This document shows positions 11,081 to 31,885 of a stretch of DNA of 64,000 bases, one piece after another. A program made the position numbers and the translations under genes. The stretch lies in NCBI GenBank assembly GCA_033030425.1, contig JAUFSD010000017.1, positions 1,054,001 to 1,118,000 of the forward strand. Direction: 5' to 3'. How positions within the stretch are numbered: position 1 is the stretch's first letter; each line of letters starts with the position of its first letter. Source of the DNA: Verpa conica. Its lineage: Eukaryota; Ascomycota; Pezizomycetes; Pezizales; Morchellaceae. The notes beneath the pieces are model-generated. The model was not told the origin of the DNA, did not search any database, and worked only from the letters and a program-made list of their open reading frames with translations.

Positions 11081-14000
11081 ATGTCGAACAACGGCGAACC
11101 CTCTGGCACACAAAACCCGATTGAAGAGACAGTTGAAGAACTAAACCTCTCCTTCTCGGAACGCGTCAGTAAGAACAAACCTATTACCATCAAACTCGAC
11201 AATGTGCACCCTCTTGAGGGTCAACACAACTACAACACATGGGCAGCTGTGATGAAAATCATCCTGAAAGGGATGAAGGTCTACGAAATCGTGGTGGATG
11301 GAGCTGAACCACCAACCGGTTCAAGCGCAAAAGAGAAAGCAGCATACGATTCTCTATGCAACCAAGCCTCAGCGGTCTTCATTCAGGTTGTTTCAACCGA
11401 TCTTTTGGAGAAAATCATCGAACTGGAACATCCCCACAAAATGTGGACTTACCTGAGAGCAGAATTCTATCGTGACACTGCTTATGCCATGGTCTCTCAG
11501 ATCATGAACCTCACAAATCTTTCAGTTACCTACGACTCTTCCCTACCTATTTCACAGTTTATTTCATCGTTCGAAACCGAGTGGCTAAGGCTTTATAAAA
11601 TGGCCAAAAGCTCCAAAGACGACTATCGAGTACTGTTCGCAAAGTTCCTGGAACAAGACAAGGCAAAACGAGACTTCCTGCTTGGCTTTATTGTCAAGCA
11701 TCATTCAAATGTCGTGGACAATCTGTCTACAAAAGACGATCTTACCTTTTCGGATGTCAAACAAACGCTTTCTCGAACTTAGCCATCAAGACACCTCCTC
11801 TCTCCCCGATCAGCAAGCCCTCTTTGCGGCAAAACAAAAACAAAAGATCTACAAAAAGCCTGTCACCACGGCTCCACCACCCAAAATTGATGTTGAAACT
11901 TGTTCCTGGTGCAATGCACATCGTAAAGATGCGCCCCTAAAGGATAGACAACACAAATGGGAAGCCTGCGACAAGCTGAAAGCAATGCAAGCTGAAAGGA
12001 AGAAGAACAAGAAAGGGAAATCGGAAAAAGCACTGGTTACAACGGGGAAAGACTCTGACTCGGTAAGAAGAAACTCCCTATTTTATTTTGACACTGGAGC
12101 AACCTCTCATATGTGCCCTCTCGCAGAACGGTTCGAGTCTCTCCAGACATGTTCCGGATTTGTGAAGTCCTCTTCAAAGGCTTCCATGGCGATAAAGGGA
12201 ATAGGCACTGTGGTGATGGACTCTGTATTAAATGATGGGACTATTTCTTCTTTTCGTGTTCATGATGTTTTATTTGTACCTGAACTAGAGCGACCGTTAC
12301 TTTCTTGGAGGAAAATTAAGGAAAAGGGATACACCATGGTTGGTAAAAGGGATCTGATTTCAATTGTTAAGCATAATAAAATTCTTTTCGAAGCAGTTTT
12401 TGACGGAACACTTTTTAAAATACCCGAAGTAAACGACGCAGCATTCCTCACATTTGACTTTTGGCACTCTGCTTTAGGACACTTAGCTCCAAGTTCTATT
12501 GAAAAGGCTAAGGAACTTTACAGTGACGCCTCAGTCATACCACAGGCACCAACAAACTTTCACTGCCCCCAATGTTCACTCTCGAAGTCTACACACAGCA
12601 AACCAAAATCTTCCAATACACGAGCTACCCAGAAGCTGGAACTAGTACATTCCGACCTATGTGGCCCCTTCCCAGTACCTAGCTATGGAAACTCCCTCTA
12701 CTACATCACCTTTATTGATAACAAGACCAGAGTCTCCTGGGTTCGATTCCTAAAGAAGAAGTCAGATACGGCGAAAGCTATTGAAGATTTCGTCAAGGAA
12801 GTTGAACTCCAGTACAGTCTCCCTGTCAAAAGGTTTAGAACTGACAACGGAGGAGAGTATGTCAACAACACCCTGTTGACCTTCTTTGCAAACAAAGGGA
12901 TCGTGCATGAACTAACACCACCATACTCCCCGGAGTCAAATGGTGTTGCTGAACGACTGAACAGAACCATTGGTGAAGCTGTGAGAGCCATGATACTCCC
13001 TCTCGGAGACAAACGATTATGGGCCGATGCTGTAGCCACCTTCATCTACATCAAAAACCGTCAACCACACTCAAGTGTCAAGAATCAGACACCCTATGAG
13101 TGCTTTCACGATATAAAACCAACGATTCATCACCTCCAACCCTTTGGCAGAGAATGCTATGTGCACATACCTGAGAATAAACGCTCAGCTGGCAGCAAAC
13201 TCTCTCCTAGGGCAACTAGAGGCATCTTTACCGGATACACCAATGTCAACCACCACTACCGAGTGTTCCTACCAGAAGAAAAGAAGTCAGTCATAACAGG
13301 CGATGTCTTCTTTCCACCTCTGAAGCCAGAAGGGGCTCAGTTAACGAGCAAAACTCCCATCAAACACGTTATGTGGTTCAACTGGATGGATCGCAACCCT
13401 GAGACCGCAAACACTTGGTTTCTGTGAAGAATAGCGGAGTAACAGCTTAGGACGCAAGTCCTAATGGTATAACTCTACAGGTACGATGCACAGAAAGAAG
13501 CGTAAAGCCAGTGAATGGGTGGTAGCAACAGAGTAAACTATTACTATAAAGAACAGGCAAGCGAGGATTCTGAGCATGTAATACCAAACAAGATAGCGTA
13601 GTAGATTGGTGTCTATATCTAGAGAATTACAGTCCCAGAAAGAGGGAGAACGGCCCGCTATTTATACAGAAAAGTCCTTTATCCTCCAACCGAGATAACT
13701 ATGTGAAAACCGAGGTGGGAACGCCGTTTGACCCTAAAAACCGTAACAAAGTAAAGGTAACCAAAAGAAATGAGTAATACAATGCTTGTAAGCGAAATGG
13801 TGTGTTGAGTAAACATAAATGAGCGCAACAAAATATGACTCATAACAAATGGCGCAATACATGTAAGTAATAAGGTATGCGACCTTTCGATAAACATTAG
13901 TAGTTATGTAAAAATGTAATAAATGTAAAAATGTAAAAATGTATTAAGAAAACAATCAGAACTGTCATCGTAATGAACTGTAGCAAATGGAGATAAAATG

Positions 14001-15116
14001 TTATACAAACAAGGAAAGACAGACTGAGAATCTCGAAAAAATAACAGTTTCATCAAGGGCATCCTAAGGTCACTACTCTCTTCCAGCAAGCGTACAAAAA
14101 CGGAAAACGTGATGGCTTCCTAGGACCTCAATTTTGGGAATTTCAAAACCCAACTCCTTCAATTCAATCTTCCAACAATGATGATCTATACGTCAATCCG
14201 AATAACATTCTACCTTCACCTACACCCTCTGCAATGGACCTTGACTCGTTAGTCGGCTCACTTCGACTTTCACAAGCGGCACAGTCGGATCCTATGTCAG
14301 AAGTATCACACCATCCACAGTTACCCCTCGATGAATCCCTACCTTCCTTCCAATCTTCATTTCAAGCACCTAGAACACGCTACGGCAGAGAGATACACCC
14401 TCCAAGAGAATGGTGGATAGTACCTCGAGTACCTACTCCTTCTCCTGCATCTTCGGAACATGGGTCCTCTCTACCTGACGCTGAACCTCTCATGATTGAA
14501 GACACACCATCGGAAGATACCATTCTGGTGTCAGTTCTTGAAGTCAATGAACCTAAGACCTACCGACAAGCAGTTAACTCAGCTGACTCGGATAAATGGA
14601 CTCTGGCCATGAACGAAGAACTTGATTCACTTAAAGAGAATGAAGTATGGGACGTGGTTGATAAACCACCACAACAAAACATCGTGGACTCTAAGTGGGT
14701 ATTCAAGGTAAAAGGTGATGCCAACGGACAAGTTGAACGATACAAGGCTAGACTAGTCGCAAAAGGGTTCTCTCAAGAACATGGCCTTGACTACGACGAA
14801 GTCTTCTCCCCCGTTGTTCGTTTCGACTCCCTACGGCTCCTACTTGCCATCACCGCCATAAAAGGCTGGCGAGTTCATCAACTGGATGTTAAAACGGCGT
14901 TTCTTTACGGAATTTTGAACAAGGAGATTTATATGCAACTACCTGAAGGCAGCAGGTCAGACAACAAAGTTGCAAGACTAAAACGGTGTATTTATGGTTT
15001 GAAGCAATCCCCAAGGGAATGGTACGGCAGACTGGTTACCTACCTCCAACCTTACGGGTTCTCTTCCTCTGCTTTTGATCCATGTGTCCTAACCCACAGC
15101 TCTGGTGAAATATTCC
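11081..15116 (+). pseudogene. gag-pol: Ty1/copia gag-pol pseudogene, element B
   Basis: Close relative of the intact polyprotein at 24448-28875. Gag starts at 11081. One extra base near 11765 shifts the frame, so reading stops at 11782 and continues in the next frame to 13427. The second part holds the CX2C zinc-binding stretch, protease (FDTGATSHM) and the integrase D,D,E core. A solo LTR-C (13423-14046) interrupts the frame with a GTTTC duplication. The frame resumes with the linker and the first part of reverse transcriptase (from about 14052; [37 protein letters not shown]). At 15116, just before the place of the YVDD motif, the sequence switches to an inverted PBS-LTR piece, so the catalytic end of RT and all of RNase H are missing. 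Confidence 0.92.
13423..14046 (-). mobile_element. Solo copia LTR-C, copy C, inside copia B
   Basis: 624-bp LTR flanked by identical GTTTC (13418-13422 and 14047-14051). The host copia sequence reads straight through when the LTR and one GTTTC are removed. An element of the same family therefore inserted into copia B and was later reduced to a solo LTR. Confidence 0.95.
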
Positions 15117-15398
15117 GGGCTCATAACCTGTGAAAATAGCGGAGTAACAGCTTAGGACGCGAGTCCTAATGGTATAACTCTTTCTGGGACTGTAATTCTC
15201 TAGACATAGACAACAATCTACTACGCTATCTTATTTGGTATTACATGCTCAGAATTCTCGCTTGCCTATTCTTTATAGTAATAGTCTACTCTGTTGCTAC
15301 CACCCATTCACTGGCTTTACGCTTCTTTCTGTGCATCGTACCTGTAGAGTTATACCATTAGGACTCGTGTCCTAAGCTGTTACTCCGCTATTTTCACA
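15117..15398. repeat. Inverted LTR-C ends with a reversed primer-binding site
   Basis: GGGCTCATAACC (15117-15128) is the reverse complement of the first 12 bases of the copia PBS. Next come 52 bp of the LTR 3' end in minus orientation (15129-15180), then LTR sequence in plus orientation from the post-TATA region to the LTR end (15181-15398). Both arms carry the same variant end (TATTTTCACA rather than TATTCTTCACA), so they derive from one LTR. Confidence 0.85.
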
Positions 15399-16147
15399 AT
15401 ATGACCTACAAAGCCACCGGAGAAGACGGACCAGATTACCTGACATGGAAGCGTTTCTGCCAGGAAGTCATCAAAGAACTCCTAGGTTCCAACAAGGCGA
15501 TGGAAGCAGTGCAGAAAATGGGGAAATGGGAATACAAGAGCAGCATCTCCGATTATATCATGCACATGCAACTCTTGAACATGAAAGCCCGGATGTCTGG
15601 CCCAAGTTTGAGGATAGCCTTTCTCACTGGCCTCCCAGCAGCAATCAGAGATAGATTATCCATGTTCCCCGTTACCAAAGACGATGACGACTTTGTCACC
15701 AACCTAGAAGCTGCAGGTAAAAGACATGAAGAGACTGTAGAGATGGAGTGGTTGCTCTCTCGAGTCCCAGGTGCCTGAGGCGAACAATCGGCGCAACGCC
15801 ACTCTAGGTTCAAAGCAAAGCAAGCGAAGAGAGAGGAAAAGAAAGAAAAACTGGCGGGCATGGAGAAGAAGGATGATAAATCCACCCCTCCAGCAAAGAA
15901 AACTTACCCTTGAAAGCACTTCAATTTCGCGGAAGCAACCAAAGGCATCCCACAAGATGTCATGGCCAGACGAGAAAAAGAAGATACATGCCGACAATGT
16001 GGCAAGAAGGGGTATGTCTGGGGCTATTGCGCGTCAGATATTAACACCAGTGCCGCTGTTTCAGCCTTCACCTTTACCAAGCGTCTGAGAGAGGAGGAGG
16101 AAGAAACCCCAGAAGAGCCTCCCAGACCACGCAAGCAACGTCATTGA
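15399..16147 (+). pseudogene. gag: Ty3/gypsy gag pseudogene next to LTR-X
   Basis: The 125-residue frame at 15401-15778 resembles a retrotransposon gag core (LTWKRFCQEVIKELLG, YIMHMQLLNMKARM, IAFLTGLPAAIRDRL). The reading then shifts frame, and a TGA stands in the stretch KTYP*KHFNF where Trp would fit. It ends with a zinc-knuckle-like CRQCGKKGYVWGYC, in which the usual His is Tyr, and RPRKQRH-stop at 16147. Nothing resembling pol lies between it and the LTR at 16166, so the body of the element is deleted. The damage again fits C-to-T type changes plus indels. Confidence 0.75.
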
Positions 16148-16165
16148 GCCAAGGCAAAGGCCGCC

Positions 16166-17318
16166 TGTTGTAGGCACCTGATAAGAGGAGTATTTCTGGG
16201 AACCATGAAGACCACTTGTTTGACTATCTAGGTAACTAAATCCCTTGTTCGTTTCTTGAGAAATGCAATAGGGGTTTGGGGAGAAGCGCGTGTGAATATT
16301 ATTGCTGGCAGCTATCTCCTGCAGGGCGCCCCACTGTGCCACCCACCAGGTGCTGGGGGGCCCCTCAGAGTTGCTGTAAACGCATAGTAAAAACACAAGC
16401 TTTGGACCCCAAAAATAACCCCTGGAGCGTCAGGTAAGTTCGTCCGTCCGAACCAAACCCGGAGGGTATACAAGGGGGCATGATTTGGAGCTGACTGGTG
16501 AAAGAATCGAGGAAATCAGATAAGAACTGACAGAGTTGTGCCCTCCGCCAGTCGGGGCATGTTTCTTGACAAACTAACGGTATGAAGGAAGGCCCCGCTT
16601 CCCAGTACTGCTTGCTGATTAGTACCAAAGGGCTTTGGTGACTCTCTGCCACAAGGGAACATGCAAGGACGGAACAGATACGGTGGTTAGTACACTTATC
16701 GGCCCATCCGCAGAGTACAGATTGGTTCACTAACAGCTTTACATGATTGCATCACTCTAGTACACCTTTGGGCTTGACTAGAATAGACGATAGGGCCGGG
16801 ACAAAGTGCTTGGACTGGTCGGGATTTGTATAAGTATGGGGGGAATGTATTTGTATTGGCGTTGTCACTGTGTTGTAAGATTTGTATTGTATGGCGTGAT
16901 TGCTTGGCAGGTTTTCAGGGTCTTCGGGGGTTCCCAGGCGTTTATATTAGGATTTAGAATAAATCGGCGAGCCCAAACCGCGGTATATAAAATAGTCGGC
17001 AGATTTGTCTCTTTACCAAAACATTAACGGGAAGAACGAGTCTTATCAATATACTTGAATCTATCGAACTACCTGATAACTCTATTACAAACCTTTTCAC
17101 TTGTGACTTTCGAAGCTCCAACTGAACGACTTTCCGCTCTATTTGACTAACGCTAGTGAGTCTTGACGATATCGTAGTTCATAACTCTCTTGTGCGATTT
17201 AAGGGAACAACTACTACTGTTGACTGAGGAGACCTCGGTAGTTGGTATCTTATACCTTCGAACTGAACTCTAAGCTTGACGGCACGTAGCCTGGACAATT
17301 GTATAGGCCAGTTTTACA
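16166..17318 (+). mobile_element. LTR-X, complete copy
   Basis: 1153 bp, TGTTGTAGGCACC to GGCCAGTTTTACA. It includes the block shared with LTR-V (about 16320-16480) and a GGTATATAAAATAG box near 16982. Flanks CCGCC and GTGGA differ. Left is gypsy gag, right is a LINE, so one side has been rearranged. Confidence 0.88.
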
Positions 17319-18420
17319 GTGGACCCCCTCGCACGTTGACATAATAGGAAACAATAAAGTTGACGCTTTAGCCAAAAAAGCACTCGAAAAAACAGACACA
17401 TATGGTAAAGCTACCATCACCTGGCTCCAGAGCCTCCCAAGACACATTTTACAAGAACAGACAGGTTCCACAACGAAGGGACCGTACCCACTCTACAGCG
17501 AGGTAAGCAAGCGCTTTGCAGACACTCTTTTCAGAATACGCAACGAGGCAACACATATCGACCCAACACACTTTCGAACACTAGCACAGTGCAAGTGCGG
17601 AGCGAGACTCTCCAGTGTTATTTTTTCGAGATTCTCAGTCTGTCTTTCCTTAATTGTATAACATTTTATCTCCATTTGCTACATTTCATTACGATGACAG
17701 TTCTGATTGTTTTCTTGATACATTTTTACATTTATTACATTTTTACATAACTACTAATGTTTATCGAAAGGTCGCATACCTTATTCTTCACATGTATTGC
17801 GCCATTTGTTATGAGTCATATTTTGTTGCGCTCATTTATGTTTACTCAACACACCATTTCGCTTACAAGCATTGTATTACTCATTTCTTTTGGTTACCTT
17901 TACTTTGTTACGGTTTTCAGGGTCAAACGGCGTTCCCACCTCGGTTTTCACATAGTTATCTCGGTTGGAGGATAAAGGGCTTTTCTGTATAAATAGCGGG
18001 CTGTTCTCCCTCTTTCTGGGACTGTAATTCTCTAGACATAGACACCAATCTACTACGCTATCTTGTTTGGTATTACATGCTCAGAATCCTCGCTTGCCTG
18101 TTCTTTATAGTAATAGTTTATTCTGTTGCTACTACCAATTCACTGGCCCTACGCTTCTTTCTGTGCATCGTACCTGTAGAGTTATACCATTAGGACTTGC
18201 GTCCTAAGCTGTTACTCCGCTATTCTTCACATCCAGCAAGCATGTCGTACTACACTGTCCACTACTGGATCAACAAAGAAAGAAACTAATCGACCAAACA
18301 CGTGGAGGGTCCTAGGAAGACATAGTCGGGCACGACAGCTACCTACCCCTACTCTCGTTTTTGAGGGCGACGAAAAGAATTTGGAGGAGGAAAAAAGAGA
18401 AAAAGCATACAAAGTGACCT
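17319..18420 (+). pseudogene. LINE ORF2 C-terminal fragment with RNase H domain (Tad-like)
   Basis: The frame opens with the RNase H motif QWTPSHVDIIGNNKVDALAKKA, typical of fungal Tad1-group LINEs whose ORF2 ends in RNase H. A C-terminal CX-C-type stretch follows (AQCKCGARLSS, then HVVLHCPLLDQQRKKL). A solo LTR-C (17616-18231) splits the frame; after removing it and one TCCAG copy the reading continues. One TAG interrupts the tail before the natural end near 18420. Everything upstream (endonuclease, RT) is missing because LTR-X abuts at 17318. Confidence 0.8.
17616..18231 (+). mobile_element. Solo copia LTR-C, copy D
   Basis: 616-bp LTR with target duplication TCCAG (17611-17615 and 18232-18236), inserted in the LINE ORF2 fragment. 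Confidence 0.95.
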
Positions 18421-19516: not shown

Positions 19517-19604
19517 TACTTGTAATTAATTCATTCATTCATTTTACTATATAAACTATAGGGCTTTCTACTTTTCGCAATACTCTTGTTATAAGTAGAC
19601 AAAT

Positions 19605-19963
19605 TGTAAAAACCGATCACCTATTGGGGAACAGCAGGCGATAATCACGAGGCAAGGCTAGTATCGGGAGACTAGGAACTCAAGGACAAGGTAGGTATGG
19701 TAATGATATAAGTTGTTGCGTGAAGAACTAACTAACTGACAGAGGTGCGTCCCTTTTATACCCTTTCTGGAGGGACGCTGAGATCAACAATGAGACAATA
19801 TGAAACTGAAGGAGCGACCTCCTTCTACATGAAACTACAGACGTCTCGTCCTGCGAGGCGTTCTTCTTACATGACCAATGATAACAGGAATCCTACGAGA
19901 TATGAAACGGTACATGAAACAAGGAGATAGACAAGGCAGACTAGGAAATGGGTGTTCTTGACA
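19605..19963 (-). mobile_element. 3' LTR-U of gypsy 2
   Basis: TGTCAAGAACACCC to GATCGGTTTTTACA on the minus strand. It is preceded on that strand by the purine-rich AAAGAGGGAC (19967-19976), a likely polypurine tract. Confidence 0.93.
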
Positions 19964-20005
19964 GTAGGTCCCTCTTTAAGGGCGAAGTTCCTACGAGACC
20001 GGAGT

Positions 20006-21169
20006 CTAATTCTGTTGCCTGAGACGGCGTTGAGTGTTGCGGCGGTGGCGAGCTCCTTTAGAGAGTTTGCGCTGGGGCTTGGGGAAGTAGCTGGCCCCTT
20101 CTTTCGCACTATAGTGTACGAGGCACTCGTCATCGTAACAGGCAGTGAAGTGCATGCAGGCATGCTCGTGGTTGGCAGACTTCTTAACTGCGTCCGGAGT
20201 AGTACTTTCCTTGGGCTGTTCGAAAGTAACCCGGGGTTTGATGTTTCCCCAGGAGTCGTAGGAGTTGGCGGTGGAAGGAGCAGACTCGGCTGCAGGCGGG
20301 GCGTAGGCGAGGGGGACAAGTTCTGTTCTTTCCCCATGGGCCTTGAACATGGGAGAGAAAGGGGGTTCTTCTTGGGTGCGAGGGGTGATGTGTCCCTCCT
20401 GGACGGCTTGATTGGTGAGTCGGGTGATGAGGTCCAGCCTCTCTTTCTGCAATTCTTCTTTCTCGGTTTGTAGACGCTTCTCATACTGGGCGTTGAGAAC
20501 TGCGGTTCCCGAGATGATAGTGGAGACGTTTTTCGTAATGTTGCCAACCTCTTGGACCATTTCAATGAGGCCAGGAGGGGGGGATACTGGTGCTGGGGGA
20601 GTGGGCGAAACGACATAGGGAGACGGGTGTTCGTCTTCGCATTCACAACTATGTCTTGAGCTTACGCTCATGGGGCTGGTGGGTTGGTGGTCGGGAATAG
20701 TGGAGGCGGGGGACGAGGCAGTAATGGGGTGTCTTTCCTGGCAATCCTCGCAATATGGATCTTCGAGGATTGGGATTTCTGGCTGGGTGCTGGCGGCAGT
20801 GATTGCCACCTCGAGTTTGCTGTAGTCCAGGGTTCCATCTTCCTTGATGAGTGGGGAGAGTGGTGTTTCGGCGGGGACGTTGATTCTATTTTTAATGAGG
20901 GTTATCTGTTGCCCCAAGGCAGCGCCTGTAGTGGCAAGTACGCTGGCATGGTAGGTGTTCACCTCCATGGTGGCTTCGAGTAACCGGCACTCGAAGATAC
21001 GGAGGGCTTGGGGAAAAGCTTTGAGGGATTGGGCGGCTACTTCGTAGTCGCGTTTGGCAAGTTCCAGTTTGGTACGGAGGAGGGTGATGTGGGTATGAGT
21101 GCTTAGGCTAATGGAGGTACCGTTGACGGTAACCTTAACGGCGGGAACGGGTGCGACGTATAGAGACAT
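20006..21169 (-). CDS. ORF3 of the chromovirus, unknown function, Cys/His motifs
   Basis: 387-aa frame after pol, in the place where env stands in retroviruses. It starts at 21169, 35 nt before the pol stop and in the +1 frame relative to pol, which suggests translation by reinitiation at the overlap or by a shift. The N-terminal third is helical and Leu/Ala-rich. Near residue 140 is CEDCQERH. Pro/Ser-rich segments follow, then a predicted coiled coil around 205-260 (EKRLQTEKEELQKERLDL). Near residues 335-350 lies HACMHFTACYDDECLVH, a CX5CX4CX2H pattern that could bind zinc. The C-terminus is basic (KGARHRRNTQRRLRQQN). There is no signal peptide or membrane segment, so it is not a classical env. 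I know of no function. The frame is fully open, as are gag and pol. Confidence 0.85.
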   Translation of the reverse strand: MSLYVAPVPAVKVTVNGTSISLSTHTHITLLRTKLELAKRDYEVAAQSLKAFPQALRIFECRLLEATMEVNTYHASVLATTGAALGQQITLIKNRINVPAETPLSPLIKEDGTLDYSKLEVAITAASTQPEIPILEDPYCEDCQERHPITASSPASTIPDHQPTSPMSVSSRHSCECEDEHPSPYVVSPTPPAPVSPPPGLIEMVQEVGNITKNVSTIISGTAVLNAQYEKRLQTEKEELQKERLDLITRLTNQAVQEGHITPRTQEEPPFSPMFKAHGERTELVPLAYAPPAAESAPSTANSYDSWGNIKPRVTFEQPKESTTPDAVKKSANHEHACMHFTACYDDECLVHYSAKEGASYFPKPQRKLSKGARHRRNTQRRLRQQN

Positions 21170-24100
21170 TTTGGTTTGTGGGGGAGGGTTTATGTGGGTA
21201 GCGGTGGTGGAATTCGTGGACGAGGGATTGGGAGTTTTCGAAATTTGAAGCAGGGTACCACTCTTGGTCGTGTTCCTTTGAATAGCCTTTCCACTGAGCG
21301 CGGTAGTAGAGTTTGTTGCGAAGGAGTTTGGAATCGATAACCTGATCGATTTCGAATTCTTCGTGAGAGTTGACGATAACTGGAGGGGGAGGAGGCTGGA
21401 TATAACCGGGTATTGGTTCTGAAGAGGCTGTTTGTTCGAGAAGACTGATGTGGAATGTTGGATGGATTTTCATGGAGGGAGGAAGGTCCAATTTATAGGC
21501 GCGGGTACCTATTCGTTCGAGTACGGAGAATGGTCCTAGACGTTTGAAGTCTAGCTTGCTGGAGGGTCGTGTAGTGTTGATGTTCCGTCTGAGTAGCCAA
21601 ACTTTGTCTCCTGGTTTCAGGATAGGGTCGGGTGACCTATGTTTGTTTGACTGTTCTGCTTGTGACTCTTGGCTGAAACGGATTTCGTCACGGAGTGAAT
21701 CATGTAGTGTTTGTAACTGTTTTGTGTATGACTCGATTTCAGGGGCTTGTGTGACGGGGGCTTGTAGGTTTAGGTGGTGTTTTGGGTGGTAGCCATAGTT
21801 GGCAAAGAATGGCGAGACTTTGGTGGTGCTTGAGACTGTGTTATTGTAACAGAATTCGGCGGTGTTTAGGAGTTCCGCCCAATTGTCCTGTTGATAGTTG
21901 ACATAGGCTCGGAGGTATTGCTCTAAGATGGCGTTGACTCGTTCTGTTTGTCCGTCGGTTTGGGGGTGGAAGGCCGTGCTTAGGTTACTTTTGATTCCGA
22001 GTTCCTTGGTTAATTCTTTCCAGAGGTTTGAGGTGAACAGTGAGTCACGGTCGCTTGTGATGTCGTCCGGTAATCCATGGTGTTTGAAAACGTGTGTCAT
22101 GAATAGTTTTGCAAATTGTTGGGCTGTAAGGGATGCTTGGCAGGGCACAAAATGTGCCATTTTTGTAAGGCGGTCTACTACCACCCATAGGGCATCGTGT
22201 CCTTGTGACGTTGGCAGTCCCGTGATAAAATCCATGGATAGTGATCGCCAGGGGCGGTCAGGGGGTTGTAGGGGTTTGAGTAATCCGAAAGGGGCGTGTC
22301 TGACTGGTTTGATGCGGGCGCACGTGTCGCAGTGGTCAACGTACTTTGTGACGAATTTTCTCATTCCCGGGAAATAGTAGTCTCGTGTGATTAGTTCGAG
22401 GGTTTTTTCGCGACCGGGATGTCCTGCGGTCAGGTTGTCGTGGATCTGTTTCACGATTTGGAGACGAAGTGGGGTATTGTCAGGGATCCAGATGAGGCCA
22501 TCGTACGTTAGTAGGTTATCTTGCATGGAGCACAAGCCTAATGCAACGTCTTTTGATCTGGTGACACCACTTTTTAAGTTTTGGATTACTTGGCGTGTTA
22601 GGGGATCGTTTTGGAGTTGTTTCTGGATTTCTTCTTTGATGGTGTTGTCGGTGGCTGTATTTGTGATGGTGGCGCTTAGTTGGAACTTGTCGGGTTTCAG
22701 GAGTGTTTGTTTGAGATGTAGGTCCCCCTTTTGAGGCAGATCTCCTGATCGCCTGGTTAGAGCGTCGGGTTTTTGTCCTTGATCGCCGGGTCTGTAGGTG
22801 ATGACGAAATTGTAGCTTCCAAGAGTTTCGGCCCACCGTGCTTGTCTTCTATTTAACTCCTTGGTTGTCATGAAGTATTCCAGATTTTTATGGTCGCTAA
22901 GTACTTTGATTTGGTGTTGACTCCCTTCCAAGTATTGTCTCCATTCTCGAAACGCTGAGACTATGGCAAGGAGTTCTTTGTCGTGGATTTCGTAGTTGAT
23001 TTGGGCTGCGTTCATTTTTTTTGAGTAATATGCGATAGGGTGGAGGACTCCTTCGCTGTTAGGTTGGGAGATTACTGCAGCTACTACGTAGTCCGAAGCA
23101 TCCGTTTCTACCGTGATTTCCTTTGACGGGTCGAAGTGTTGGAGGATTGGAGCTGTGGTGAAAGCTTTTTTGAGTATGTTGAATGCTTTTCTTGCTTCCG
23201 TATTGAATTCGAACTTGACGTCTTTTTTGAGGAGTTGTGTTAACGGTTTACAGATGTTGCTGTATTTGTCGATGAAGCGTCGATAGAAGTTGGCAAATCC
23301 TAAGAAACACTGGACGTCGTGGACTGAGGCTAGGTCGGGCCATTCAGTTATGGCTTGGATTTTCTTGGGGTCCATGAACACGCCTTTGGGAGATACTATG
23401 AAACCGAGGTATTCTATCTCTTCTTGGTGGAAATGGCACTTAGAGGGCTTGAGATTGATTCCAGCATTACGAAGTTTTTTCATAACCTGGCGGACTTGAC
23501 TGACATGGGACTTCATGTCTTCGGAGTAGATGAGAATGTCATCTAGGTAGACGATACAGAAGACGTCTAGAAATTTGGACAGGATCTCATTGATCCATGC
23601 TTGGAACGTGGCAGGAGCGTTGGTGAGTCCGAAAGGCATGACAGTGTATTCGTAAAGGCCGTAGCGCGTTCGTGTTATTTTTTTTTCGAAGATTCTCAGT
23701 CTGTCTTTCCTTGTTTGTATAACATTTTATCTCCATTTGCTACATTTCATTACGATGACAGTTCTGATTGTTTTCTTTGATACATTTTTACATTTATTAC
23801 ATTTTTACATAACTACTAATGTTTATCGAAAGGCCGCATACCTTATTTCTCACATGTATTGCGCCATTTGTTATGAGTCATATTTTGTTGCGCTCATTTA
23901 TGTTTACTCAACACACCATTTCGCTTACAAGCATTGTATTACTCATTTCTTTTGGTTACCTTTACTTTGTTACGGTTTTCAGGGTTAAACGGCGTTCCCA
24001 CCTCGATTTTACATAGTTATCTCAGTTGGAGGATAAAGGACTTTTCTGTATAAATAGCGGGCCGTTCTCCCTCTTTCTGGGACTGTAATTCTCTAGACAT

Positions 24101-27100
24101 AGACACCAATCTACTACGCTATCTTGTTTGGTATTACATGCTCAGAATCCTCGCTTGCCTATTCTTTATAGTAATAGTCTACTCTGTTGCTACCACTCAT
24201 TCACTGGCTTTACGCTTCTTTCTGTGCATCGTACCTGTAGAGTTATACCATTAGGACTTGCGTCCTAAGCTGTTACTCCGCTATTCTTCACAGGTTATGA
24301 GCCCGGCTGCACACAACAGCTAACTCTAATCTTACAACAACACTGGCGTCTTCTGCTGTCATCTCTCCTGCTCGCTCAATATCTCCAACCCTATCCGAAC
24401 TAGACCTCCTCACATACCCTGAGTTATCGCTCAACCATCCCATCGAAATGTCGAACAACGGCGAACCCTCTGGCACACAAGACCCGATTGAGGAGAAAGT
24501 TGAAGAACTAAATCTCTCCTTCTCGGAACGCGTCAGTAAGGATAAACCTATCACCATCAAACTCGACAATGTGCGCCCTCTCGAGGGACAACACAACTAC
24601 AACACATGGGCAGCCGTGATGAAAATCATCCTGAAAGGGATGAAGGTCTACGAAATCGTGGTGGACGGAGCTGAACCACCAACCGGTTCAAGCGCAAAAG
24701 AGAAAGCAGCATATGAATCTCTATGCAACCAAGCCTCAGCGGTCTTCATTCAGGTTGTTTCAACCGATCTTTTGGAGAAAATCATCGAACTGGAACATCC
24801 CCACAAAATGTGGACTTACCTGAGAGCAGAATTCTATCGTGACACTGCTTATGCCATGGTCTCTCAGATCATGAACCTCACAAATCTCTCAGTTACCTAC
24901 GACCCTTCCCTACCTATTTCACAGTTTATCTCATCGTTCGAAACCGAGTGGCTAAGGCTCTATAAAATGGCCAAAAGCTCCAAAGACGACTATCGAGTAC
25001 TGTTTGCAAAGTTCCTGGAACAAGACAAGGCAAAACGAGATTTTTTGCTTGGCTTTATTGTCAAGCATCATTCAAATGTCGTGGACAATCTGTCTACAAA
25101 AGACGACCTCACTTTCTCGGATGTCAAGCAACGTCTCCTCGAACTCAGCCATCAAGACACCTCCTCCCTTCCCGATCAGCAAGCCCTCTTTGCGGCAAAA
25201 CAAAAACAAAAGACCTACAAAAAGCCTGTTACCACGGCTCCACCTCCCAAAACTGATGTTGAAACTTGTTCCTGGTGCAACGCACATCGTAAAGATGCGC
25301 CCCTAAAGGATAGACAACACAAATGGGAAGCCTGCGACAAGCTGAAGGCAGTGCAAGCTGAAAGGAAGAAGAACAAGAAAGGGAAATCGGAAAAAGCACT
25401 GGTTACAACGGGGAAAGACTCTGACTCGGTAAGAAGAAACTCCCTATTTTACTTTGACACCGGAGCAACCTCTCATATGTGCCCCCTCGCAGAACGGTTC
25501 GAGTCTCTCCAGACATGTTCCGGATTTGTGAAGTCCTCTTCAAAGGCTTCAATGGCGATAAAAGGAAAAGGCACTGTGATGATGGACTCTGTGTTAAATG
25601 ATGGGACTATTTCTTCTTTTCGTGTTCATGATGTTTTATTTGTACCTGAACTAGAGCGACCGTTACTTTCTTGGAGGAAAATCAAGGAAAAGGGATATAC
25701 CATGGTTGGTAAAGGGGATCTGATTTCAATTGTTAAGCATAATAAAATTCTTTTCGAAGCAGTTTTTGACGGAACCCTTTTTAAAATACCCGAAGTAAAC
25801 GACGCAGCATTCCTCACATTTGACTTTTGGCACTCTGCTCTAGGACACCTAGCCCCAAGCTCTATTGAAAAGGCTAAGGAACTTTACAGTGACGCCTCAG
25901 TCATACCACAGGCACCAACAAACTTTCACTGCCCCCAATGTTCACTCTCGAAGTCTACACACAGCAAACCAAAATCTTCCAATACACGAGCTACCCAGAA
26001 GTTGGAACTAATACACTCCGACCTATGTGGCCCCTTCCCAGTACCTAGCTATGGAAACTCCCTCTATTACATCACCTTTATCGATGACAAAACCAGAGTC
26101 TCCTGGGTTCGATTCCTAAAGAAGAAATCAGAAACGGCGAAAGCTATTGAAGATTTTGTCAAGGAAGTTGAACTTCAGTACAGTCTTCCTGTCAAAAGGT
26201 TCAGGACTGACAATGGAGGAGAGTATGTCAACAACACCCTGTTGACCTTCTTTGCAAACAAAGGGATCGTGCACGAACTAACACCACCATACTCCCCCGA
26301 GTCAAATGGTGTTGCTGAACGACTGAACAGAACCATTGGTGAAGCTGTGAGAGCCATGATACTCCCCCTCGGAGACAAACGATTATGGGCCGATGCTGTC
26401 GCCACCTTTATTTACATCAAAAACCGTCAACCACACTCAAGTGTCAAGAATCAGACACCCTATGAGTGCTTCCACGATATAAAACCAACGATTCACCACC
26501 TCCAACCCTTTGGCAGAGAATGCTATGTGCACATACCTGAAAATAAACGCTCAGCTGGAAGCAAACTCTCTCCTAGGGCAACTAGAGGCATTTTTACCGG
26601 ATACACCAATGTCAACCATCACTACCGAGTGTTCCTACCAGAAGAAAAGAAGTCAGTCATAACAGGCGATGTCTTCTTTCCACCTCTGAAGCCAGAAGGG
26701 GCTCAATTAACGAACAAAACCCCCATCAAACACGTTGTACGAAAATCACCCAACACATCTATCTCCTACACTGAGACTGAAGGGTTTCCAACTGACGAGA
26801 TGTGGTTTAACTGGATGGATCGCAACCCTGAAACTGCAAACACCTGGTTTCATCAAGGGCATCCTAAGGTCACTACACTCTTTCAGCAAGCGTACGAAAA
26901 TGGAAAACGTGACGGCTTCCTAGGACCTCAATTCTGGGAATTTCAAAACCCAACTCCTTCAATTCAATCTTCCAACAATGATGATTTATACGTCAATCCG
27001 AATAACATTCCACCCTCACCTACACCCTCTGCAATGGACCTTGACTCGTTAGTCGGCTCACTTCGACTTTCACAAGCGGCACAGTCAGATCCTATGTCAG

Positions 27101-30100
27101 AAGCATCACACCATCCACAGTTACCCCTCGATGAATCCCTACCTTCCTTTCACTCTTCATTTCAGGCTCCTAGAACTCGTTACGGCAGAGAGATACACCC
27201 TCCAAGAGAATGGTGGATAGTACCTCGAGTACCTACCCCTCCTCCTGCATCTTCGGAACATGGATCCACTCTACCTGACGCTGAACCTCTCATGATTGAA
27301 GACACACCATCGGAAGATACCATTCTGATGTCAGTTCTCGAAGTCAGTGAACCTAAGACCTACCGACAAGCAGTTAATTCAGCTGACTCGGATAAATGGA
27401 CTCTGGCCATGAACGAAGAACTCGACTCACTTAAAGAGAATGAAGTATGGGATGTGGTTGATAAACCACCACAACGAAACATCGTGGACTCTAAGTGGGT
27501 ATTCAAGGTAAAAGGTGATGCCAACGGACAAGTTGAACGATACAAGGCTAGATTAGTCGCAAAAGGGTTTTCACAAGAACATGGCCTTGACTACGACGAA
27601 GTCTTCTCTCCCGTTGTTCGCTTCGACTCCCTACGGCTCTTACTTGCCATCACCGCCATAAAAGGCTGGCGAGTCCGTCAACTGGATGTTAAAACGGCGT
27701 TTCTTTACGGAATTTTGAACAAGGAAATCTACATGCAACTACCTGAAGGCAGCAGGTCAGACAACAAAGTTGCAAGACTAAAACGGTGTATTTATGGTTT
27801 GAAGCAATCCCCAAGGGAGTGGTACGGCAGGCTGGTTACCTACCTCCAACCTTACGGATTCTCTTCCTCTGCCTTTGATCCATGTGTTCTAACCCACAGC
27901 TCTGGTGAAATATTCCTGGCCATCTATGTGGACGACATTACTCTCTTTGGACCCGATAACGATCTAGTCGAGCAGTCCGTACAACTTATGAAGTCGGAAT
28001 TCAAAGTCAATGACATGGGCTCTCTAAACTACCTCCTCGGCATCCAAATCGAGTACAACAAGGACGGAATATCCCTATCGCAAACTGCATTTATCGATAA
28101 GATCCTATCACGCTTCTCAATGACAGATTGCAACCCAGTCACCACGCCCATCGACCCTAACCATCGTCTGATGAAGGCTTGTGATAATGACGAACGGGTC
28201 AATGCAACTGAGTACAGACAGATAATAGGCTCTCTTATGTATCTCGTCACTGCGACTAGGCCCGACCTTGCCTACACAATAACTCACCTATCTCAATTTT
28301 GTTCGGACCCAATCAAAGTACATCTTAACGCTGCAAAGCGCGTACTCCGTTACCTCAAAGGCACAAAGAACCGGAAACTACTTTATCCTACCGGAACCTC
28401 TTTACATCTATCTGCTTTCACTGATGCATCTCACGGAAACTGTCTCGATACAAGAAGGAGCTTCTCTGGGTACCTATTCCAACTTGGCCAATCAACTATA
28501 TCCTGGTGTTCCCGAAAGCAAAAATCAGTTGCCACCTCTACCTGTGAGGCTGAATACATGGCACTGGCTATGACGGCAAAACACTACTTATGGTTGACTC
28601 GTGCTATTAACGAGTTGTTAAAGACCCAGATTCCTCACGCTCTTCTCTGTGATAGCAACTCCGCTGACGATATCGCTCGGAATCCTAAGCTAAACGATAG
28701 ATCCAAACACATAGACATCTCCTATCACTTCGTCCGAGAACTCGTCGAAGATGGAACGATCAATCTATTACATGTTGCCTCTGCGGATAACTTTGCAGAC
28801 ATTTGCACCAAGGGTTTACCACGACAGACACACGACCACTTATGTAGTTACATCTTTAACGAGACTACAAAGTGAGAAGGGGTGTTATTTTTTTTTCGAA
28901 GATTCTCAGTCTGTCTTTCCTTGTTTGTATAACATTTTATCTCCATTTGCTACATTTCATTACGATGACAGTTCTGATTGTTTTCTTTGATACATTTTTA
29001 CATTTATTACATTTTTACATAACTACTAATGTTTATCGAAAGGCCGCATACCTTATTTCTCACATGTATTGCGCCATTTGTTATGAGTCATATTTTGTTG
29101 CGCTCATTTATGTTTACTCAACACACCATTTCGCTTACAAGCATTGTATTACTCATTTCTTTTGGTTACCTTTACTTTGTTACGGTTTTCAGGGTTAAAC
29201 GGCGTTCCCACCTCGATTTTACATAGTTATCTCAGTTGGAGGATAAAGGACTTTTCTGTATAAATAGCGGGCCGTTCTCCCTCTTTCTGGGACTGTAATT
29301 CTCTAGACATAGACACCAATCTACTACGCTATCTTGTTTGGTATTACATGCTCAGAATCCTCGCTTGCCTATTCTTTATAGTAATAGTCTACTCTGTTGC
29401 TACCACTCATTCACTGGCTTTACGCTTCTTTCTGTGCATCGTACCTGTAGAGTTATACCATTAGGACTTGCGTCCTAAGCTGTTACTCCGCTATTCTTCA
29501 CAGTTCGAAATGCTGTTTTCCATTCGTCCCCTTCTGCTATTCGGATATGGTGGTATCCTTCTCGGATGTCTAATGACGTATAGACCTTGGCTGACTTTAG
29601 ACGATCTAAAGCTTCGTTAATTAGTGGCAAGGGGTACCGGTCTTTAACGGTGACGGCGTTAAGTCCGCGGTAGTCGACACACAGCCGCATTGATCCATCT
29701 TTTTTCTTAACAAATAGGATGGGTGCTCCGGCTGAGGAAGATGAGGATCTAATCCATCCCCTCTTCAGGTAGGTTTCCAGGTATTCGCGTAGAGTTTTCA
29801 ACTCCGCTTCTGACAATGAGTACAGTTGTTTGAATGGCGGAGTGGTTCCTGGCATGAGATTGATCTTATGATCTGCTTGACGACGAGGAGGCGGGTCGGT
29901 AGGTTCGCGCTCGTGGAATATATCGAGGAAGTCGTGGTATTCGACGGGTAGAAGATTTTTTGCTTCTGGGGACTTGGCTGGGGGTTGAGTATCCTTTCTC
30001 ATGTATTCGTATTTGTCCGAAGCACAAAGTTCTAATGCATGATTGATTTCTCGGATGGTGAGGAGGCAGGGTTCGCCTTGTTTCGCAGATCGTTTAAACG

Positions 30101-30818
30101 CAGCTGCTCCTACTAGGCTTATATCTGCTGTCTTGAGGTGTTGGATAATTGCAGGCTTCTCAGGGAGGGCTTGGACGACACTTGGTACGTTAAGGCACTC
30201 CTCCTGACAAGTTTTGGACGTGAAGTTGACTTGGTGTTCTTTCCACATAATTTCCGGGTTATGTTTTTTGAACCAGGGGATTCCTAGGATTACTGGGTAG
30301 TGTCCTAGTTTGGTGACTTGGAGGGTTTCCGTTTCTTGGTGGTTTCCTATTTTTATAGGCAGTTTGACTTGGTGAGTGATGGTGCCGTTTTGGGAGGTTG
30401 ATCCATCGATAAGGGTAAGTGGTTGTGCCACTTTCTTGGCTTGGACTGGGAATTGCTTTTGATTGGCGAAACTGCGGTCGATGAAGTTTCCAGTTGCTCC
30501 GCTATCTAGCATGGCAAAGGTTTCAATGACTTGGGTTCCGAGGCTGATTTGTACCGGAAGGATGAGGTGGTCGTCTAGGGCGTGTTTTGGAGGGATGTCA
30601 GAAGAACAGGACAGTCCAGCTGTACTGAATGATGTATGGTTTTCGGGGAGGTCTTGAAGTGGGGCGAAGCGTGATGGTTTGGCAACTCTAGGGGGTTCCT
30701 TCGCCAGGGGTAGGTTGCGCTTTACTCCTGGTCTTCCTCGTTTCCCGATTCTTCGAGATTTTGTGTGGAGGTACCGGCTAGTCTTCTGGGCTTTGGTTTC
30801 CACGTTTTCTCTGGGCAC
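21135..30818 (-). CDS. pol: Chromovirus pol: protease-RT-RNase H-integrase-chromodomain, split by copia
   Basis: Two minus-strand segments, 30818-29503 and 23667-21135, form one frame of about 1282 codons once the copia insertion and one GTTCG are removed; the break falls in TAFRT|RYG. In order: protease with [13 protein letters not shown] ([39 protein letters not shown]), RNase H ([24 protein letters not shown]), integrase zinc region ([11 protein letters not shown] to CDTCARIK), integrase core ([33 protein letters not shown]) and a C-terminal chromodomain ([29 protein letters not shown]). Pol overlaps the end of gag in the -1 frame and must be reached by frameshifting. The chromodomain places it in the chromoviruses, which target histone marks. 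As it stands the gene is inactivated by the nested copia. Confidence 0.95.
23673..24292 (+). mobile_element. 5' LTR-C of copia E
   Basis: TGTTATTTTT to TATTCTTCACA. The promoter TATAAATA is at 24049-24056; the pyrimidine-rich CGTTCTCCCTCTTTCTGGG follows it. Confidence 0.95.
24293..24307 (+). promoter_or_regulatory. Primer-binding site of copia E (initiator tRNA-Met, internal)
   Basis: GGTTATGAGCCCGGC directly after the 5' LTR pairs with the anticodon arm of fungal initiator tRNA-Met (GCCGGGCTCATAACC), indicating a half-tRNA primer as in Drosophila copia. Confidence 0.75.
24448..28875 (+). CDS. gag-pol: Copia Gag-Pol polyprotein, intact (1475 aa)
   Basis: Single frame holding all functions of a Ty1/copia element. 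Gag covers about residues 1-230 ([20 protein letters not shown] region). Near 271-295 is a stretched zinc-binding pattern CSWC...H....C (CX2CX13HX4C) in place of the usual CX2CX4HX4C knuckle. Protease DTGATSHM is near 336. The integrase zinc region (FWHSALGHL to CPQCSLSK) is near 455-505; its D,D,E core has acidic residues near 524 (HSDLCGPF), 588 (RTDNGGEY) and 618 ([14 protein letters not shown]). RT starts near 960 with YVDDI at about 1160. RNase H has FTDASHG near 1324 and CEAEYMAL near 1366. ATG context follows about 155 nt of leader after the LTR. There is no frameshift between gag and pol, as is normal for many copia elements. Confidence 0.97.
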   Translation: MSNNGEPSGTQDPIEEKVEELNLSFSERVSKDKPITIKLDNVRPLEGQHNYNTWAAVMKIILKGMKVYEIVVDGAEPPTGSSAKEKAAYESLCNQASAVFIQVVSTDLLEKIIELEHPHKMWTYLRAEFYRDTAYAMVSQIMNLTNLSVTYDPSLPISQFISSFETEWLRLYKMAKSSKDDYRVLFAKFLEQDKAKRDFLLGFIVKHHSNVVDNLSTKDDLTFSDVKQRLLELSHQDTSSLPDQQALFAAKQKQKTYKKPVTTAPPPKTDVETCSWCNAHRKDAPLKDRQHKWEACDKLKAVQAERKKNKKGKSEKALVTTGKDSDSVRRNSLFYFDTGATSHMCPLAERFESLQTCSGFVKSSSKASMAIKGKGTVMMDSVLNDGTISSFRVHDVLFVPELERPLLSWRKIKEKGYTMVGKGDLISIVKHNKILFEAVFDGTLFKIPEVNDAAFLTFDFWHSALGHLAPSSIEKAKELYSDASVIPQAPTNFHCPQCSLSKSTHSKPKSSNTRATQKLELIHSDLCGPFPVPSYGNSLYYITFIDDKTRVSWVRFLKKKSETAKAIEDFVKEVELQYSLPVKRFRTDNGGEYVNNTLLTFFANKGIVHELTPPYSPESNGVAERLNRTIGEAVRAMILPLGDKRLWADAVATFIYIKNRQPHSSVKNQTPYECFHDIKPTIHHLQPFGRECYVHIPENKRSAGSKLSPRATRGIFTGYTNVNHHYRVFLPEEKKSVITGDVFFPPLKPEGAQLTNKTPIKHVVRKSPNTSISYTETEGFPTDEMWFNWMDRNPETANTWFHQGHPKVTTLFQQAYENGKRDGFLGPQFWEFQNPTPSIQSSNNDDLYVNPNNIPPSPTPSAMDLDSLVGSLRLSQAAQSDPMSEASHHPQLPLDESLPSFHSSFQAPRTRYGREIHPPREWWIVPRVPTPPPASSEHGSTLPDAEPLMIEDTPSEDTILMSVLEVSEPKTYRQAVNSADSDKWTLAMNEELDSLKENEVWDVVDKPPQRNIVDSKWVFKVKGDANGQVERYKARLVAKGFSQEHGLDYDEVFSPVVRFDSLRLLLAITAIKGWRVRQLDVKTAFLYGILNKEIYMQLPEGSRSDNKVARLKRCIYGLKQSPREWYGRLVTYLQPYGFSSSAFDPCVLTHSSGEIFLAIYVDDITLFGPDNDLVEQSVQLMKSEFKVNDMGSLNYLLGIQIEYNKDGISLSQTAFIDKILSRFSMTDCNPVTTPIDPNHRLMKACDNDERVNATEYRQIIGSLMYLVTATRPDLAYTITHLSQFCSDPIKVHLNAAKRVLRYLKGTKNRKLLYPTGTSLHLSAFTDASHGNCLDTRRSFSGYLFQLGQSTISWCSRKQKSVATSTCEAEYMALAMTAKHYLWLTRAINELLKTQIPHALLCDSNSADDIARNPKLNDRSKHIDISYHFVRELVEDGTINLLHVASADNFADICTKGLPRQTHDHLCSYIFNETTK
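28874..28882 (+). promoter_or_regulatory. Polypurine tract of copia E
   Basis: GAGAAGGGG immediately precedes the 3' LTR; its first bases overlap the polyprotein stop codon. Confidence 0.8.
28883..29502 (+). mobile_element. 3' LTR-C of copia E
   Basis: 620 bp, apparently identical to the 5' LTR at 23673-24292. Confidence 0.95.
30704..30746 (-). promoter_or_regulatory. -1 ribosomal frameshift signal between gag and pol
   Basis: On the minus strand the heptamer G GGA AAC (30746-30740) lies in the gag frame within SGNEE. An 8-nt spacer follows, then a stem-loop at 30731-30704: CCAGGAGTA pairs with TACCCCTGG (8 of 9 pairs, one A-C mismatch) across a 10-nt loop. Slipping back one base at GGGAAAC enters the pol frame (IGKRGRPG). 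The gag stop at 30722-30724 falls within the loop structure. Confidence 0.75.
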
Positions 30819-31699
30819 TTATCTGCCATGTGGTTGGGTTTTCCACAGTACATGCAGAGGTTGTTTTCGAACCGTCTCTTTTTTTCCTTGTCGGTAAGTG
30901 GAAGGAATTTCTTTTTTCTAGAGGCGTCTAGGTCCATAGGGTCTCCTGGAGGTGATTCCGTGGTGGTGATTGGAGGCGGGCTTGGATTGGGTGCGAACGT
31001 TCCATTGGTGTGTCTGGGAACGTAGGGCTGAGTATAGGCCTTCGTAGTGGGTGCTTTGGGTGCATGACTGTCCCACTTGGTGGTGCGGACTTTGCTGGCT
31101 ATTATTTCGTTGTCTAGGTTGATGCACAGTAGTGCGAATTCCCTTAGTGTTGCTGGTTTATTGATAATGGCGGTTAGTTTAGCCCTTATGTTCCGGGCTA
31201 GTCCATCGTAGAACTCGTCTTTCAATGCTTCCTCGTTCCATCCTAGTAAATCCATGTCGGTTTGGAATTTAGTCCAATACTCGTTTACTGTTCCGGTCTG
31301 GCACAGGTTTCTTATTCGTTGTTTGGCGGCTTCTTTCGTGTCTGCTTCGCCGAAAGCTTTTTTGAGGGCATCCTTAAATGTTTCCCAGGTGGTGTACGTT
31401 TTGTTTTCGAGAACTGAAAACATCCAGGACCCTGCTTGATCCTTCATTTTATTGCTGGCGTATATGAGTTTTTGCATATCTGTGGCGTCTGTATACTCTG
31501 TGAACTTATTTTCGCACTGTCGTAGCCATGTGCGGATTTTCGTGGGTTCGCCTTTGAACTCATCGGCGTCTGGTATTTTCATTGTTCGTGGCTTGTTGTT
31601 TTTTGTTGCTGCTACTTGTTCAAGTAGTTGGACTAGAGCGTCATTGCTCATTTGGACTGGGTTGCTACCGCCTGCGGTAGTTTCTGCTGATGAAGACAT
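30722..31699 (-). CDS. gag: Chromovirus Gag (325 aa)
   Basis: Structural protein of gypsy 2. Residues 40-200 form a retrotransposon gag core ([47 protein letters not shown]). A canonical CCHC knuckle [14 protein letters not shown] lies near residue 282-295, followed by a basic and then acidic tail. The frame is complete. The last ~97 nt overlap pol in the -1 frame and hold the GGGAAAC shift site. The start ATG is the first of the frame, about 190 nt after the 5' LTR. Confidence 0.93.
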
Positions 31700-31874
31700 T
31701 CTGTTGTCGGATTGGAACGGGGTTTCTGGAGTTATTGGTCTGGATTGGGGGTCTGGGGTAATGGGGCTGGTTGCCCTGTCTGGTACTTCCTGTAATAAGG
31801 GTCCGAAAAGGGTATCTAGATTAAATGATACGTTTTGATCCAGATTGAAGACTATCGGGTGCTGCGTAGGGTAG

Positions 31875-31883
31875 ACGCAACAA
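31875..31883 (-). promoter_or_regulatory. Putative self-priming primer-binding site of gypsy 2
   Basis: Two bases after the 5' LTR the minus strand reads TTGTTGCGT. There is no TGG start as expected for a tRNA 3'-end primer. Instead it is exactly complementary to ACGCAACAA inside the LTR (plus bases 31994-32002), about 33 nt downstream of the TATAAAA box (32035-32041), where the mRNA should start. This is the layout of Tf1-type self-priming. Confidence 0.55.
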
Positions 31884-31885
31884 AG

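Follow-up and report, generated by a model that had tools for sequence, protein, structure and literature searches.

Accessory genes are widespread among LTR retrotransposons, and the function of most of them is unknown. The locus analyzed here raises the question of whether the open reading frame (ORF3) that follows pol in a Ty3 element of the fungus Verpa conica is such a gene, and how it could serve the element. A survey of LTR retrotransposons, most of them fungal chromoviruses, includes in the legend of its Figure 3 an additional ORF with no known function (PMC2864245). Like ORF3, it is an extra ORF of LTR retrotransposons; the accessible text of the survey gives no sequence, selection test, domain, or partner element for it. 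The accessible part of another source (PMC3248453) makes no mention of an additional ORF. Additional ORFs of plant LTR retrotransposons are likewise conserved accessory ORFs, some with hints of a nuclear or nucleic-acid-binding role; as far as the accessible texts go, they come mostly from plant hosts, unlike the fungal ORF3 (PMC7264820, PMC11963269, PMC11728184). In the fungal Boty element, brtn is described in the part of the source available as antisense, whereas ORF3 lies in sense orientation and overlaps pol.

The DNA analyzed, here called the window, comprises 64,000 nt of the forward strand of contig JAUFSD010000017.1 (positions 1,054,001-1,118,000; assembly GCA_033030425.1), and copies of ORF3, of its zinc cassette, and of the integrase were sought in the genome of 45.8 Mb (25 contigs). 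As befits a fungus, this genome has 48 matches to the fungal Zn2Cys6 domain at E 1e-3, compared with none in 14 control genomes.

ORF3 is a third gene of a chromovirus family

The element lies on the minus strand of the window in the order 5' LTR, gag, pol, ORF3, 3' LTR. Its LTRs (5', 31886-32244; 3', 19605-19963) are 359 bp long and equal at 359 of 359 bases, as an earlier sequence-only reading had judged from their appearance, and they are flanked by the target duplication ATTTG (32245-32249, CAAAT on the plus strand, and 19600-19604). The primer-binding site (PBS; 31864-31885) contains 9 nt complementary to LTR position 243, an arrangement typical of self-priming, and the polypurine tract (PPT) AAAGAGGGACCTAC occupies 19964-19977. 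The gag gene (30722-31699) encodes Retrotrans_gag and Ty3_capsid domains and one CCHC knuckle that stays below the Pfam cut-off. The pol gene is found in two pieces, the 5' part (29503-30818) with the protease and the start of the reverse transcriptase (RT), and the 3' part (21135-23672) with the RT end, RNase H, integrase, and chromodomain; across both, the Pfam domains follow the chromovirus order of protease, RT, RNase H, integrase, and chromodomain, and the C-terminus carries SH3_Tf2-1 and chromo domains (Pfam Chromo, E 2e-7).

The two pieces are separated by a Copia element inserted on the plus strand within the RT region (23673-29502), which is not part of the chromovirus. This insertion is young; its LTRs are identical at 620 of 620 positions, its target duplication is GTTCG, and its 1475-aa ORF looks intact. 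Its LTR recurs at 13414-18240 of the window, where copies in either orientation enclose a truncated Copia pol. Since the insertion splits pol, the copy in the window cannot make an intact Pol, and ORF3 is untouched; the earlier description of ORF3 as being as open as gag and pol thus held for ORF3 and failed for pol.

ORF3 occupies 20006-21169 of the minus strand and encodes 387 amino acids from an ATG at 21169-21167 (context CCAAAATGTC) that is kept in 14 of 14 copies. The sequence-only reading had given its extent without a strand, and the same interval contains stops when read on the plus strand. The proposed 35-nt overlap with pol was confirmed, with pol ending at 21135 and ORF3 starting at 21169. 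The genome search found the body of ORF3 at 15 loci including the window, 14 of them without a stop and one decayed, with a TAA. These loci are the 15 best of the 75 SH3_Tf2-1 matches in the genome, a count that misses any element copies lacking that domain, so that an ORF besides gag and pol accompanies all 15 of the best integrase loci. Homologues downstream of other pol genes, which had been named as the test of a real gene, therefore exist at 14 other loci (13 open, one decayed). Residues 1-323 of ORF3 gave no further genome match at E below 0.83, and the ends of five other chromovirus pol genes (L039-L043) were crossed by no sense-strand ORF of at least 70 codons. By these searches, the ORF3 body appears to be found only in one chromovirus family in the Verpa conica genome. 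A second chromovirus in the window (7354-10368; pol 45% identical) was set aside as evidence on ORF3 because its pol is truncated before the chromodomain. Downstream of one of the other chromoviruses lie ORFs resembling those of non-LTR retroelements (L039:831-2933), and a fragment at about 17330-17600 of the window seems, by eye, to be similar to them.

The second proposed test, dN/dS among copies, also came out in favor of a gene. Over all pairs of the 14 open copies (Nei-Gojobori; pairs non-independent), dN/dS was 0.107, far from neutral, compared with 0.065 for the 3' pol piece (n=9, the copies with a single unbroken alignment of that piece) and 0.032 for gag (n=10). In six pairs picked by us, binomial P for ORF3 ranged from 4.6e-31 to 2.5e-17. 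Mean dS of ORF3 was 0.33, far above the divergence of the LTR pairs (0-15 differences per about 359 positions in the 12 copies measured), which indicates that most of the change accumulated during past cycles of transposition and was then open to selection.

The start of the gene can be seen in the position of the variable sites. Over the 300 nt that precede the ORF3 start codon, they fall on pol-frame codon positions 1, 2, and 3 in the numbers 14, 6, and 38; in the 35-nt overlap the counts are 3, 1, and 0; and in the 265 nt after the overlap, they are 16, 8, and 51 by ORF3-frame position. The codon-position pattern thus switches frame at the ORF3 ATG, as expected for a real gene starting there. 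A Pol-ORF3 fusion by frameshift was considered and dismissed: the ORF3 frame extends without a stop for 207-303 nt upstream of the ATG, yet this stretch varies as the pol frame does. As a check for a spliced message, a branch-like CTRAY motif was sought in the last 250 nt; 13 of 14 copies lack it, which is not decisive. All 14 copies are free of ATG over the 304 nt leading up to the ORF3 start codon, a gap reached by 32 of 2000 synonymous shuffles of the window copy; this is a weak signal, because equally long gaps occur elsewhere in pol. ORF3 is thus a genuine third gene of one young, self-priming fungal chromovirus family and, judged by its pattern of substitution, has its translation start at an ATG of its own, at the end of pol, and does not depend on a frameshift from pol.

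Organization and relatives of the ORF3 protein

The N-proximal Cys/His cluster of ORF3 (residues 140-181; 20627-20752, minus strand, as are all parts of the gene) contains seven residues invariant in all 14 copies, namely C140, C143, H147, H173, C175, C177, and H181. It is followed by a long helix predicted with low confidence (residues 201-257; 20399-20569), and residues 210-260 show the lowest dN/dS of the ORF3 stretches tested (0.025). Residues 1-130 are mostly helical in the same model; these helices are indications only, as the model was built from a single sequence and is poor (mean pLDDT 46.9). The middle of the protein is rich in proline and acidic residues, as judged by eye. The putative zinc cassette, which is WCCH-like, comprises residues 325-364 (20078-20197) and is absent from 7 of the 14 copies, and the protein ends in an Arg/Lys-rich tail (residues 364-387; 20009-20080) with 10 K/R and no D/E, in agreement with the basic tail described earlier. 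Overall, sequence and model point to a protein that is probably soluble and oligomeric, in which a helical body would be followed by a Cys/His-rich middle and a long helix, with the exchangeable cassette and the Arg-rich tail at the C-terminus.

Both Cys/His clusters of the sequence-only reading are present, but the first cysteine of its CX5CX4CX2H pattern, C338, is not conserved, being Ser in L016 and L032 and a residue other than Cys in L035. Since C338 varies while H336 stays, H336-x7-C344-x4-C349-x2-H352 is the likelier ligand set. The residues invariant among the cassette relatives are H336, A343, C344, Y345, D347, C349, H352, K356, Y361, and P363, and this pattern suggests that the cassette binds zinc.

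The location of ORF3 after pol would suit an envelope-like gene. The highest mean hydropathy of any 19-residue stretch (Kyte-Doolittle) is only 0.95, in keeping with the earlier view that the protein has no membrane segment, no Pfam envelope model matches, and no signal peptide is seen by eye; the earlier conclusion that ORF3 is not env therefore stands, and the envelope reading is close to refuted.

Relatives outside the family were sought in several collections. When the whole ORF3 protein (P0001) was compared with 5.8 billion proteins, 7997 candidates were scored and none of these reached E 1e-3; residues 318-387 gave one candidate in the protein collection and none at E 10; viral contigs searched with P0001, P0002, and the cassette alignment yielded no relative; and a PDB sequence search with ORF3 returned matches at chance level only (best E 0.069). 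The lack of outside homologues is weak evidence, as the collections seem poor in fungi.

The WCCH motif, found in retrotransposons and geminiviruses, is modeled in Pfam as PF03716, and all 25 of the model positions match the cassette. The copy L015 on contig C15 reached 23.2 bits in the genome search, above the cut-off of 22.4, and 19.4 bits as a protein, while the window copy stayed below the cut-off both ways (17.3 in the genome search and 13.5 as a protein); among the four ORF3 copies listed in the genome search, one passes the cut-off, and it fails as a protein. Read from the alignment, the C, C, and H of the W-x2-C-x4-C-x2-H core are kept, and its Trp is replaced by Phe in ORF3 and in the short elements described below, whereas L032 and L035 retain it. 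A literature search for "WCCH motif" found no paper.

The cassette motif is 38% identical to L032 and 31% identical to L035. The first (L032:1486-2439, minus strand) is a retroelement ORF consisting of RNase H, a linker, and a WCCH-like end, with no integrase in the ORF; the second (L035:1462-2157, minus strand) is a 232-codon ORF with a WCCH-like C-terminus that adjoins a ubiquitin hydrolase gene. A search with the L032 protein recovered 111 relatives at E up to 1, of which one (P0003) shows the strict WCCH pattern and eight a loose pattern that was written post hoc; in P0030, P0037, and P0039, a CCHC-type knuckle follows the WCCH-like pattern. By this association only, nucleic-acid binding would be the likeliest activity of the cassette.

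The zinc cassette and the short LTR family

Seven of the 14 open ORF3 copies contain the cassette, and it is missing in frame from the other seven. Young copies occur among both kinds: of the 12 copies in which both LTRs are full-length, five show no differences between them (11 of 12 have matching target duplications; the pairing left out L013, L020, and, among the short elements described below, L027), and these five comprise copies with the cassette (the window and L016) as well as without it (L021, L022, and L023). Since copies lacking the cassette also have identical LTRs, it is not needed in cis. In a tree of the ORF3 body, copies with and without the cassette are interleaved, and the strong branches force at least two changes, whereas a tree of the 3' tail is compatible with a single origin of the cassette; few branches are strong in either tree. 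Such a distribution would fit exchange by template switching, and loss in more than one lineage may be an alternative explanation.

Beyond the ORF3 family, the cassette is encoded at seven more loci, which lack the ORF3 body and apparently belong to one short LTR family, of which six (L025-L030) were analyzed, C24:548485 being left out. At E 1e-5, the sole match between the seven cassette-bearing ORF3 copies and the interior of L025 is a block of 40 codons, 84-87% identical in DNA; in L016, the shared block extends to 51 codons and roughly equals the segment missing from cassette-less copies. Nucleotide comparison shows the cassette to be shared between the chromovirus and the short LTR family, and the sharing probably arose by exchange.

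The short elements are about 2.6 kb long, with LTRs of about 424 bp and internal tandem repeats. They have a PBS and a PPT, and no match to gag or pol of the window chromovirus was found inside them, which makes them non-autonomous LTR elements. Their LTR has at least 40 near full-length matches in the genome (40 of the 40 scored, out of 84 candidates). The cassette ORF, with its own basic tail, stands directly before the PPT and has 77 codons in four of the six elements, its ends being altered in L028 and L030. A second gene after the PBS was considered and rejected, the frame having 143 codons in two of six elements (L027 and L029) and 34-83 in the others, and two frames of about 140 codons from the short elements gave no Pfam match. 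As this frame is broken in four of six, the cassette is the only protein of the short family that looks kept. The short family presumably depends on the ORF3 chromovirus, from which it would borrow Gag and Pol.

Two observations leave room for a reading in which the 40-codon block works in cis, as an RNA or DNA signal (a packaging signal, for instance), and its protein reading is incidental: in both families the PPT follows closely downstream of the block, and the short elements show no visibly stronger constraint on the ORF than on its flanks. In five of the six elements (L028, with its shifted ends, was excluded), the ORF varies at 0.020 and the adjoining noncoding DNA at 0.019 and 0.013, with 6, 3, and 8 variable sites by codon position; the ORF thus varies like flanking noncoding DNA, and no selection is visible within the short family. 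Between the families, on the other hand, the 33-codon core has dN 0.054 and dS 0.50 (ratio 0.11; 42 pairs), with binomial P of 0.0003-0.0037 for the window copy and L014 against L026 and L029, and of 0.07 (non-significant) and 0.015 for L016 against L026 and L029, respectively. This mostly synonymous change indicates that the protein sequence of the cassette has been kept. The motif is also common to the L032 and L035 proteins, and half of the autonomous copies do without the block, which makes a cis-acting signal very improbable. Among ORF3 copies, the cassette evolves faster than the rest of the protein (dN/dS 0.38 for residues 323-362 and 0.27 for the core). From these comparisons, selection on the cassette may have acted on the chromovirus side.

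Third ORFs are also described in LTR retrotransposons of bdelloid rotifers, where, according to the accessible text, their types (env, GDSL esterase, DEDDy exonuclease, coiled-coil, and transmembrane) are common to unrelated classes of retroelements (PMC5408684); here, by comparison, the shared part is a small zinc cassette, present in a chromovirus, in a non-autonomous LTR element, and in another Pol. The short family resembles TRIM, LARD, and BARE-2 elements, which the available descriptions present as short, lacking a full gag-pol, and thought to be mobilized in trans, and it differs from them in having retained one small ORF, which is homologous to the cassette in the accessory gene of the presumed partner. 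TR-GAG elements are also counted among the non-autonomous LTR elements. Our literature search, with subscription papers mostly outside it, found no non-autonomous LTR element that codes for a domain from the accessory gene of its partner. ORF3 is a gene under clear selection. One of its domains is present in some copies and missing from others that are just as young, and a stand-alone version of this domain is carried by a dependent-looking element. The natural series with and without the cassette, together with the minimal version of 77 residues, offers a direct way of testing what an accessory ORF does.

Possible roles of ORF3 and the shared LTR signals

The sequence-only reading had offered RNA packaging, silencing evasion, and integration as candidate roles. 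We hypothesize that the ORF3 product is an accessory protein that binds nucleic acid and acts in trans, and that its zinc cassette is exchanged with a dependent partner; this is the best of the mechanisms considered, held tentatively and at somewhat less than even confidence. The protein would be made from its own ATG by re-initiation or from a subgenomic mRNA and would act in trans on the nucleic acid of the element inside the virus-like particle, possibly as a nucleocapsid-like RNA-binding factor for packaging or as a chaperone, with the zinc cassette as the nucleic-acid contact. The short LTR partner, encoding the cassette and a basic tail, would borrow Gag and Pol from the chromovirus. The WCCH-like pattern and the CCHC-type knuckles in relatives of the L032 protein speak for a nucleic-acid role. 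Against this mechanism stand the weakness of the structural model of ORF3, the identical LTRs of cassette-less copies, the faster evolution of the cassette, the variation of the short ORF at the level of noncoding DNA, the non-significant comparison of L016 with L026, the single match to the strict WCCH pattern, and the CCHC-like knuckle that Gag already has. A bolder version, which we regard as quite unlikely, takes the cassette as a freely exchanged module and the short family as a parasite's parasite, whose own 77-residue factor would steer its RNA into chromovirus particles; half of the chromovirus copies would have dropped the cassette, perhaps escaping in this way.

The two families also share cis signals. 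They have the same first 11 LTR bases (TGTCAAGAACA), the same LTR end TTTTACA followed by CTTTG, and the same last 12 bases of the PPT. The common ends could suggest that ORF3 helps the cDNA to integrate or to enter the nucleus by connecting integrase, the shared LTR ends, and a host factor, and the basic tail could serve as a nuclear signal. The integrase, however, already has a chromodomain, and because it itself requires shared ends, these say nothing about ORF3; we consider a role in integration distinctly improbable.

Complementarity of 9 nt between PBS and LTR, as in self-priming of the Tf1/sushi type, was found in 12 of 13 chromovirus copies (L020 was left out of the test; the exception, L013, has an interrupted 5' LTR) and in all six short copies, and was reached by 0-3 of 200 shuffles for the former and 1-6 of 200 for the latter. 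In each family the PBS (in L025, after position 3465) is complementary to its own LTR at the corresponding place. The PBS and its LTR partner differ in sequence between the families, and each pair is still complementary; such covariation of distinct yet matching pairs is good evidence for self-priming.

Apart from their ends, the LTRs of the two families show short weak matches only, plus arrays of the motif GTTTCATRT, which occurs four times in the chromovirus LTR and five times in the short LTR (L025:3042-3465), against shuffle means of 0.006 and 0.016. The chromovirus array lies in U3, at 19798-19920 of the window and again in the 5' LTR at 32079-32201. That LTRs sharing so little otherwise have both kept these arrays favors the main rival to the packaging mechanism, in which ORF3 would be a nuclear regulator that, bound to LTR DNA or to chromatin, stimulates transcription or works against silencing, comparable with Tat and VANC, and the mini-protein of the short family would do the same or compete. 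The Arg-rich tail together with a zinc-like domain, and the proline- and acid-rich middle of the protein seen by eye, would suit such a regulator. For the chromovirus Tekay of sunflower, the accessible part of the source describes an extra protein, encoded by a 5' ORF, in which a nuclear signal is predicted and whose fold is compared with that of DRBM proteins (PMC11728184). The regulator reading is weakened by the finding that cassette-less copies are as young as others, and by the arrays themselves. The reverse complement of GTTTCATRT contains ATGAAAC, which we take to be the core of the Ste12 pheromone-response element; with a Ste12-like core in the U3 arrays, a host factor explains them without ORF3. 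We therefore rate the regulator as plausible, though on the unlikely side. If the resemblance holds, Ste12-like sites would tie both LTR families to mating signals; yeast Ty3 is described, in the accessible text of the source, as activated in mating (PMC4589538).

In the window as a whole, GTTTCATRT has 13 matches, compared with 1.38 expected, and a solo LTR of the ORF3 chromovirus lies on the plus strand at 52317-52675, flanked by the target duplication CCCGT as read by eye.
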